Below, piece after piece: positions 30,021-60,751 of a DNA stretch of 64,000 nucleotides. The DNA lies in assembly GCA_022842205.1 (NCBI GenBank), contig JALHQA010000001.1, forward strand, positions 1 to 64,000, written 5' to 3'. Numbering within the stretch: position 1 is the first letter of the stretch; every line of letters begins with the position of its first letter. The position numbers and the translations under genes were made by a program. The notes under the pieces are model-generated. The model was not told the origin of the DNA. It searched no databases and worked only from the letters and a program-made list of their open reading frames with translations. This stretch comes from Hyphomicrobiales bacterium. Lineage in GTDB: Bacteria > Pseudomonadota > Alphaproteobacteria > Rhizobiales > Methylopilaceae.

Positions 30021-30074
30021 CGAATCTCCGGCTCGCTCATCACGAGAACTAGGAAGAAATTGCCGGGTGTATGG

Positions 30075-30090
30075 TTAATCCCGCGTTAAC
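30075..30090. promoter_or_regulatory. Candidate CtrA box in the divergent flgB/fliO region
   Basis: TTAA-TCCCGCG-TTAAC, exact TTAA-N7-TTAAC. Confidence 0.65.
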
Positions 30091-43327: not shown

Positions 43328-43410
43328 CTCGATCCCAGCCAGAATCGGCCGCACGACCCGCGACCTCGTTCTTAAGACTAGGGAAACAATGGTTAACACT
43401 CTCTTGCGGG

Positions 43411-43439
43411 CGGCAAATTCTGCCGGGTCATTCTTGCCG
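43411..43439. promoter_or_regulatory. Palindromic element CGGCA-N5-TGCCG plus degenerate copy (ftr/FlbD-site-like) in the fliL/flgF region
   Basis: CGGCA-AATTC-TGCCG (43411-43425) then GGGTC-ATTCT-TGCCG (43425-43439). Confidence 0.6.
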
Positions 43440-43512: not shown

Positions 43513-43528
43513 TGGCACGCCCTGTGAA
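43513..43528 (+). promoter_or_regulatory. Candidate sigma54 -24/-12 element for flgF
   Basis: TGGCACG-CCCT-GTGAA: exact -24 block, weak -12 block. Confidence 0.4.
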
Positions 43529-43596
43529 TTGCATAAGGCGTCTGCACGTCGGGAAGGACGGACGGACACACCGAAACGCACGAAGGGGGAAGCTTC

Positions 43597-47585: not shown

Positions 47586-47999
47586 TCAGCCCGGCCGGCG
47601 CGCCAGCTTGGCGAGTTCGACCTCTGCACGGAGCTCGATTTCGGCGAGAATCGCGTCCAGCGCGGGATCGCCTGTCTCCTCCCGGGCCTCGGCAACGGCC
47701 TGATTGAGGCTCTGGAGGGCTGCGGGTGACAGTGTGCCGTCCAGCACACCGAGTTTTACCTGGTCCAGAAGATCGAGAAGACGGCGGCCGCGCGCGGTGC
47801 CCTTGCGGCGGCGCTCGCCCGCCATATCCACCGATTGCAGGGCAAGCAGCGTGTCGAGCCCGGGCACGGTTGAAATGCCGAATGTCTTTTGCGCGGGGGA
47901 CGACGTCTCGGCGTCCGGAAGGGAGAATCCCGTTCCGCCCTGCGCACGACGCACAGCCGAAGCCTGCTGCCCGATCCGGTTCGTACCTTCGACTCGCAT
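47586..47999 (-). CDS. fliX: Flagellar assembly regulator FliX
   Basis: MRVEGTNRIGQQASAVRRAQGGTGFSLPD ... LDLLDQVKLGVLDGTLSPAALQSLNQAVAEAREETGDPALDAILAEIELRAEVELAKL; divergent from flgI. Confidence 0.87.
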   Translation of the reverse strand: MRVEGTNRIGQQASAVRRAQGGTGFSLPDAETSSPAQKTFGISTVPGLDTLLALQSVDMAGERRRKGTARGRRLLDLLDQVKLGVLDGTLSPAALQSLNQAVAEAREETGDPALDAILAEIELRAEVELAKLARRPG

Positions 48000-48040: not shown

Positions 48041-48055
48041 TTAACCGGTCGTTAA
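48041..48055. promoter_or_regulatory. Candidate CtrA box in the fliX/flgI divergent region
   Basis: TTAA-CCGGTCG-TTAA exact; 42 bp upstream of the fliX ATG. Confidence 0.65.
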
Positions 48056-48058
48056 TGG

Positions 48059-48092
48059 CGGCAATTTTTGCCGCCCAAGGCAAAATCGACCC
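48059..48092. promoter_or_regulatory. Palindromic element CGGCA-N5-TGCCG plus degenerate copy (ftr/FlbD-site-like) upstream of flgI
   Basis: CGGCA-ATTTT-TGCCG (48059-48073, arms extend to GGCGGCA/TGCCGCC) then AGGCA-AAATC-GACCC (48078-48092). Confidence 0.6.
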
Positions 48093-48170
48093 TGCAGGAA
48101 TGGTCGCCCCGGAGCGGCTCGGCGCGGCCTTAGGCTATCGAAATCAATCACTTACGGCGTTAACCATGCG

Positions 48171-48186
48171 AGGCACGCTTCTGGCA
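48171..48186 (+). promoter_or_regulatory. Candidate sigma54 promoter for flgI
   Basis: AGGCACG-CTTC-TGGCA, GG-N10-GC, close to TGGCACG-N4-TTGCA. Confidence 0.6.
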
Positions 48187-48209: not shown

Positions 48210-49490
48210 ATGCAGCGCTCGCTCTCGATCCTGGTCCGCAACGTCACGCTTGCCGCCATCGCCGCCGGCACGATCTTCGCCGTGGCGCATGCGCGTGCGG
48301 CGGAGCCCCCGCTGCAGCTCGGACCGGCCCGGCCCTATATCGCGCCGACGGGCGAGGTTGTGGCTGCAACCGTATTGCCACCTCCCGCTCCCTATTGGCA
48401 GGGCAACGAATTCGCCTCTGGGGGTGACCCGGGCCAGATCGGCCCGACCGCCGCGCGCATCAAGGACCTCATCGACATCGAGGGCGTGCGCGAAAACCAG
48501 CTCATCGGTTATGGCCTCGTCGTGGGCCTCAACGGCACCGGCGACAGCCTGAACGCCTCGCCCTTCACCCGCCAGTCGCTGACCGCGATGCTGGAGCGCC
48601 TCGGCGTCAATACGCGCGGCGCGACGCTTCGTACAAAGAACGTGGCCGCCGTCATGGTGACGGCGAGCCTGCCGCCGTTCGGCACGCAGGGCACGCGCAT
48701 CGATGTCACGGTTTCGGCGATGGGCGACGCCACCAGCCTTCAGGGCGGCACCCTGCTGGTCACTCCCCTGCTCGGCGCCGACGGCGAGGTCTATGCGGTC
48801 GGCCAGGGGCCGGTCGCGGTGATCGGATTTTCGGCGCAGGGCGAGGCCGCGAAGGTCGTTCGCGGCGTACCGACAACGGGCCGCATCTCCAACGGAGCCG
48901 TCGTCGAGCGTGAAATCGAATTCGCGCTGGCCGGCATGTCCACGGTGCGGCTTGCGCTGCGCAACCCCGACCTCACCACGGCGCGGCGCATCGCCGGCGC
49001 CATCAACACGCTGATGGGCGAAGCGGTTTCCGAGCCGCTCGACCCGGCGACCGTGCAGCTCTCGATCCCCGACAGCTACCGCAGCAACATCGTGCGTCTT
49101 CTGACCGAGATCGAGCAGCTGCGCGTGCAGCCCGACAATATCGCGAAGGTCGTGATCGACGATTCGTCCGGCATCATCGTCATGGGACGCGAGGTGCGTG
49201 TCTCGACCGTCGCCGTCGCGCAAGGCAATCTGACCGTGACGATCAGCGAGGAGCCGATCGTCAGCCAGCCCGAACCTTTCAGCGACGGCGCGACGGTCGT
49301 CGTGCCGCGCACGACCGTGCAGGTCGATGATGAGAACCACCATCAGCTTGCGGTCGTCAAACAGGGCGTAACCTTGCAGGAGCTGGTCGATGGCCTGAAC
49401 TCGCTGGGCATCGGCCCGCGCGACCTGATCGGCATTCTCCAGGCGATCAAGGCCTCGGGCGCGCTGCAGGCCGACATCGAGGTCATGTAA
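48210..49490 (+). CDS. flgI: Flagellar P-ring protein FlgI
   Basis: 426 aa; RIKDLIDIEGVRENQLIGYGLVVGLNGTGDSLNASPFTRQSLTAMLERLGVN; VTLQELVDGLNSLGIGPRDLIGILQAIKASGALQADIEVM. Confidence 0.97.
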   Translation: MQRSLSILVRNVTLAAIAAGTIFAVAHARAAEPPLQLGPARPYIAPTGEVVAATVLPPPAPYWQGNEFASGGDPGQIGPTAARIKDLIDIEGVRENQLIGYGLVVGLNGTGDSLNASPFTRQSLTAMLERLGVNTRGATLRTKNVAAVMVTASLPPFGTQGTRIDVTVSAMGDATSLQGGTLLVTPLLGADGEVYAVGQGPVAVIGFSAQGEAAKVVRGVPTTGRISNGAVVEREIEFALAGMSTVRLALRNPDLTTARRIAGAINTLMGEAVSEPLDPATVQLSIPDSYRSNIVRLLTEIEQLRVQPDNIAKVVIDDSSGIIVMGREVRVSTVAVAQGNLTVTISEEPIVSQPEPFSDGATVVVPRTTVQVDDENHHQLAVVKQGVTLQELVDGLNSLGIGPRDLIGILQAIKASGALQADIEVM

Positions 49491-50969: not shown

Positions 50970-50984
50970 TTAACTGCCCGTTAT
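50970..50984. promoter_or_regulatory. Degenerate CtrA-like box upstream of flagellin 1
   Basis: TTAA-CTGCCCG-TTAT, one mismatch. Confidence 0.4.
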
Positions 50985-51009
50985 TTCGCCACATGTGAGA
51001 TCAGCCGCA

Positions 51010-52656: not shown

Positions 52657-52671
52657 TTAACCATAAATTAG
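52657..52671. promoter_or_regulatory. Degenerate CtrA-like box upstream of flagellin 2
   Basis: TTAA-CCATAAA-TTAG, one mismatch. Confidence 0.45.
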
Positions 52672-60647: not shown

Positions 60648-60663
60648 TGCAAGGGGAAGGCCA
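60648..60663 (-). promoter_or_regulatory. Candidate sigma54 promoter for flgE
   Basis: Minus strand TGGCCTT-CCCC-TTGCA (GG-N10-GC with exact TTGCA -12 block), 63 nt from the ATG. Confidence 0.55.
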
Positions 60664-60717: not shown

Positions 60718-60751
60718 AGGCAGAATCGACCCCATGCGGCAGAATCTGCCG
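60718..60751. promoter_or_regulatory. Palindromic element CGGCA-N5-TGCCG plus degenerate copy (ftr/FlbD-site-like) upstream of flgE
   Basis: AGGCA-GAATC-GACCC (60718-60732) and CGGCA-GAATC-TGCCG (60737-60751). Confidence 0.6.

Follow-up and report, generated by a model that had tools for sequence, protein, structure and literature searches.

A CtrA box and an ftr-like palindrome kept in helical register between fliX and flgI in Hyphomicrobiales

The handover from the CtrA program to the FliX/FlbD checkpoint during flagellar biogenesis is known chiefly from genetic work in Caulobacter. In that organism, control of flagellar genes passes from CtrA in the early phase to FlbD in the late phase, with FliX acting as the partner of FlbD (PMC3930126, PMC3096577). 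Between the early gene fliX and the late gene flgI of a Hyphomicrobiales bacterium, a CtrA box almost abuts an ftr-like palindrome in the 64,000-nucleotide stretch of DNA analyzed here (the window). This arrangement raises the question of whether the two sites are merely neighbors or parts of one control element.

The region between fliX and flgI is short (approximately 210 bp), and its elements are listed in Table 1. The fliX start was placed at the ATG at 47999, where the Pfam FliX match begins at residue 1, and flgI is followed by a gene for a rod-binding protein (PF10135). A sequence-only reading had named the two genes and called them divergent; the Pfam matches bear this out, and a divergent flgI was found at 129 of the 130 fliX loci of the order, the exception running off its contig. 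The box, the palindrome, the AGGCA site, and the sigma54-like site that it had picked out are all present, and its assignment of the CtrA box to the fliX side holds for an exact box 42 bp upstream of the fliX start that is kept in genus and order. Two details required revision. The AGGCA site lies where it had been placed, but it is a half-site rather than a second palindrome, with only GGCA conserved in the genus. The proposed gap of 3 bp is correct to the palindrome core CGGCAATTTTTGCCG (48059-48073), whereas the full 19-bp palindrome is only 1 bp from the CtrA box.

Table 1. Elements of the fliX/flgI intergenic region and of the related fliL/flgF region, in window coordinates.
Feature	Coordinates	Strand	Remarks
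fliX	47586-47999	-	Early regulatory gene, leftward; PF10768, 134.5 bits (cut-off 25), residues 1-132
CtrA box TTAA-CCGGTCG-TTAA = TTAACCGGTCGTTAA	48041-48055		Conserved in genus and order
ftr-like palindrome GGCGGCA-ATTTT-TGCCGCC	48057-48075		Putative FlbD site; conserved in genus and order
Second ftr half-site AGGCA-AAATC-GACCC	48078-48092	+	19 bp from palindrome; GGCA core
CtrA half-site TTAACCAT	48160-48167	+	3 bp upstream of sigma54 -24 element
flgI sigma54-type promoter AGGCAC-GCTTC-TGGCA = AGGCACGCTTCTGGCA	48171-48186	+	Approximately 105 bp from palindrome centre
flgI (P-ring)	48210-49487	+	PF02119, 465.6 bits; first gene of late operon
fliL (-)/flgF (+): degenerate CtrA box TTAACACTCTCTTGC followed by the palindrome at 43411-43425	43393-43425		Spacing 18

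The window contains two copies of TTAA-N7-TTAA, where 0.04 would be expected, and three of the exact CGGCA-N5-TGCCG motif (43411, 48059, and 60737), which in every case precedes a late flagellar operon. A box-palindrome pair with a short gap was found once in the 2.78-Mb genome, and the reversed pattern was not found there. A search of the window with the bare sigma54 consensus returned 21 matches against 22.4 expected, which is chance level; the sigma54-like site at 48171 was therefore accepted because of its conservation in genus and order, not from its consensus match. On the fliX side, no conserved -10 element was seen in the comparison of relatives' loci and four congeneric genomes. Weak conserved columns on this side of the box were considered as a -10 and rejected, since they look like a degenerate ftr.

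The genome encodes CtrA, FlbD, RpoN, and FliX, and five NtrC-family proteins in all. CtrA was 93% identical over 201 aa to a Caulobacter CtrA sequence. FlbD passed the NCBIfam equivalog NF050807 (800.3 bits; cut-off 750), whereas FliX scored 123.5 bits against its equivalog NF050808, under the cut-off of 175, and passed PF10768 by a wide margin. The sigma54-contact loop of the FlbD AAA+ domain (L033; C4:290474 of the same genome) reads GSFTGA, not GAFTGA. With these regulators encoded, the conserved TTAA-N7-TTAA box beside a candidate CtrA-regulated gene, in a genome with ctrA, is a probable CtrA site. Likewise, the CGGC..GCCG-type palindrome, which lies approximately 100 bp from a flagellar promoter of the sigma54 type in a genome with FlbD and FliX, is a putative ftr, and it fits the published ftr consensus. 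The GG-N10-GC motif in its TGGCAC/TTGCA context, weak as a consensus and conserved, is a candidate sigma54 promoter in a genome with rpoN.

Alignment of the intergenic region from four congeneric genomes showed conserved islands at TTAAC-N5-GTTAA, CGGCAAAATTTGCC, the GGCA of the half-site, and the almost invariant sigma54 motif GGCACGCTTCTGGCAT, and these islands coincide with the elements that had been picked by eye. In these genomes, no conserved island was seen between the CtrA box and fliX. Across the order, with at most one mismatch allowed in each element, the CtrA box was found at 111 loci (6.1 in shuffled regions) and the palindrome at 89 (1.2 in shuffled regions), and a strong sigma54 site stood at the corresponding place in 119 of 123 relatives as against 14 of 123 shuffled sequences. 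Pleomorphomonas retains the palindrome without the CtrA box, and families f40 and f43 the box without the palindrome. In other families (L026, L066, L067, L073, L077, L079, and L083), palindromes lie approximately 21-22 bp on either side of one CtrA box, in the order ftr-CtrA-ftr.

The distance between the two elements proved to be more strictly kept than their surroundings. The absolute box-palindrome spacing was 17-23 bp in 72 of the 74 fliX/flgI loci of the order that have both, with a mode of 20. The palindrome lay on the flgI side at +17 to +21 in 62 of the 74, the remainder being mainly at -21 to -23; permutation of positions across genomes gave 8.1 expected in this interval and a maximum of 18 in 5000 permutations. 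The same interval held 31 of 40 loci against 3.3 expected when one locus per genus was used. The standard deviation of the spacing was 1 bp among loci at +17 to +23, compared with 26 bp for the distance from the fliX start to the box. The spacing thus corresponds to an integral number of helical turns across the group, and the window, with a start-to-start distance of 18 bp, is two bases under the mode and falls approximately 2-3 bp below two full turns. The 20-bp rule is weaker in bacteria outside the order.

At fliL/flgF, where CtrA boxes are often degenerate and up to two mismatches were allowed, the spacing was either 17-21 or 29-30 bp with no positive values between, and both classes occurred within genus g2. 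The spacing therefore shifts by one helical turn, which keeps the sites on the same face of the DNA. The distances from the palindrome to the sigma54 site at flgI were also phased, clustering at approximately 94, 104, and 115 bp across relatives (105 in the window; R = 0.59 at 10.5 bp, a value reached in 0 of 20,000 uniform draws). Together, spacing and phasing place the FlbD-type site, the CtrA box, and the sigma54 promoter on one face in most relatives. In its distance of approximately 105 bp and its phasing across relatives, the palindrome appears to behave like the enhancer of a sigma54 activator. The earlier proposal that FlbD-type sites serve the flgI sigma54 promoter thus gains support from the architecture, in which a conserved promoter site lies at this phased distance.

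We consider it probable that the region is a bidirectional control element in which one CtrA box and an FlbD (ftr) array are held in fixed helical register. We infer the binding of CtrA and FlbD, the directions of control, and the cooperation of the two from sequence, as follows. Phosphorylated CtrA at 48041-48055 would turn on early fliX leftward, and FliX together with early flagellar assembly would license FlbD, as is known from Caulobacter. FlbD would then bind the palindrome and the half-site and activate flgI rightward through the phased sigma54 promoter. Because the two regulators would sit side by side on one face, approximately two turns apart, FlbD occupancy would also modify the CtrA-dependent promoter, as co-regulator or as feedback, so that early-to-late switching would take place within one nucleoprotein complex.

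The feedback might instead work by exclusion, with FlbD on the palindrome blocking or displacing CtrA at the adjacent box and so shutting fliX off. This reading is unlikely but has a precedent in Caulobacter, where FlbD on ftr4 upstream of early fliF represses that gene (PMC3930126), and in several families another ftr lies 21-22 bp away on the fliX side, a natural position for a repressor. In the window, by contrast, a scan with the ftr matrix found no further ftr leftward of the box, toward fliX, and steric exclusion would not require the whole-turn shift to 29-30 bp seen at fliL/flgF. Since the CtrA box and the palindrome do not overlap and their spacing preserves phase, the evidence favors action of CtrA and FlbD side by side and speaks against simple steric exclusion as the form of the interference that the earlier reading had suggested. 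The Caulobacter fliF promoter resembles the present one in having an FlbD site (here a predicted one) beside an early flagellar promoter; it differs in that the strong ftr here lies between the CtrA box and the late gene.

CtrA could also act mainly as a repressor of late flgI, instead of or besides activating fliX. The model for this is C. crescentus flgB/fliO, where a CtrA site common to the divergent promoters activates fliO and represses flgB (Boyd and Gober 2001, as cited in PMC6180460). The half-site TTAACCAT, so close to the -24 element, would suit such a role; among the four congeneric genomes, however, only two have it (the window and L004), it is rare elsewhere, and the main box adjoins fliX, approximately 120 bp from the sigma54 site, which makes this arrangement quite improbable. 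A general CtrA half-site at the flgI sigma54 promoter was rejected as a feature of the group, TTAA occurring there in only 7 of 92 loci. As far as flgB/fliO is described in PMC6180460, the two regions are alike in that an early gene and late RpoN/FlbD-dependent genes diverge around a CtrA site, and the fixed CtrA-ftr spacing is absent from that description.

We then return to the reading of a joint CtrA-FlbD element and to its occurrence elsewhere. Among 249 genomes of the order, the exact composite gave 66 matches and its reversed control none. Their positions, together with tblastn searches using the flagellar proteins of the window, assigned 49 to fliX/flgI, 5 to fliL/flgF, 1 to flgB/fliO, and 8 to minC; the 3 elsewhere are probably chance matches. 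Within the 64 kb, a matrix derived from the fliX/flgI palindromes of relatives scored highest at 43411, 60737, 48059, and 30051, followed by a drop, and these four sites are all upstream of flagellar operons (fliL/flgF, flgE, fliX/flgI, and flgB/fliO, respectively), although only three are independent matches, the training set having included the 48059 site. A full-plus-half ftr arrangement like that of flgI occurs upstream of flgE (60722) and flgF (43425).

These regions differ in their further elements. Upstream of flgE, a half-site and a full palindrome (AGGCAGAATCGACCC and CGGCAGAATCTGCCG; 60722-60751) accompany a sigma54-like site at 60648-60663, and the stretch read there contained no CtrA box. 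Upstream of flgF, the sigma54-like halves at 43513-43535 (TTGGCACGCCCTGTGAATTGCA) have a non-standard spacing despite the strong ftr. The flgB/fliO region (30051-30089) has an exact CtrA box at 30075 and, 24 bp away on the flgB side, an imperfect ftr (AGGAAGAAATTGCCG) at 30051; with this distance and an imperfect palindrome, it falls outside the 20-bp rule, and its arrangement resembles the shared promoter of Caulobacter flgB/fliO. The two flagellin genes are without an ftr palindrome and have CtrA-like sequences (TTAACTGCCCGTTAT and TTAACCAT) at 50971-50985 and 52657-52664, and flagellin expression here may be of the CtrA type rather than the FlbD/sigma54 type.

At minC, a palindrome 19-21 bp from a CtrA box was found in all 13 minC-bearing genomes of g2 (the Methylopila group) and in G002, the composite loci including L141, L143-L147, and L149-L154. 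The CtrA box at minC was found in most genomes having the gene, including two without FliX, and the minC palindrome was absent from the window's own genome. No sigma54 site clearly above shuffled sequences was detected near the palindrome at the 12 loci scored (G002 and one other left out). As there is no homology between the minC promoter and fliX/flgI, the equal spacing speaks for function over descent, and the composite suggests a flagellar or FlbD input to the Min system. In Sinorhizobium meliloti, CtrA represses minCD (PMC4433202). Control of minC by CtrA would be common to both, and the g2 genomes add the ftr-like palindrome at its 19-21-bp distance.

The minC promoter also bears on whether the two sites are independent and their spacing simply inherited, packed into a short region. 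The gene order is ancestral, as the 129 of 130 loci indicate, and the region is small; the flanking distances, however, drift by tens of bases while the spacing holds within approximately 1 bp, and with the one-turn change at fliL/flgF and the equal spacing at a non-homologous promoter we regard this explanation as very unlikely. That a protein other than FlbD reads the palindrome is highly doubtful: five NtrC-family proteins are encoded, FlbD binding here is a prediction, and the minC palindrome has no detectable sigma54 promoter nearby at the 12 loci, but the best window matches are all upstream of flagellar operons, sigma54-like sites lie near flgI and flgE, and the palindrome, fitting the published ftr consensus, shows enhancer-like phasing at flgI in the order as a whole.

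The conservation of the pair and its spacing across the order, and again at minC in one genus, suggests that CtrA and FlbD work as a single unit. Its parts are already known from Caulobacter, as is a divergent promoter sharing a CtrA site (flgB/fliO). As in Caulobacter class III promoters, an ftr-like site lies approximately 100 bp from a sigma54 promoter in a genome encoding FliX and FlbD (PMC3930126, PMC3096577); unlike Caulobacter ftr enhancers, the putative enhancer here is locked approximately two turns from a CtrA box. In the fla2 system of Rhodobacter sphaeroides, CtrA boxes likewise lie between divergent flagellar promoters, and there RpoN is not involved and the Rhodobacteraceae species compared were reported to lack the FlbD gene (PMC6180460). 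Neither a fixed CtrA-ftr spacing rule nor a CtrA-ftr composite at minC was found in the open-access literature, and within that coverage the rigid helical register of CtrA box and ftr-like site is apparently new, as are its repeated occurrence and the minC case.

More tentatively, and as a possibility rather than an expectation, CtrA and FlbD may form a cooperative complex on one face of the DNA whose spacing follows a fixed grammar and which serves as a portable module at early/late flagellar gene pairs and also occurs at g2 minC, through which the flagellar checkpoint would reach division-site control. From a rigid, phased composite shared by many Hyphomicrobiales families one would predict that CtrA and FlbD meet on the DNA. 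If this is true, the minC module would link flagellar assembly directly to cell division.
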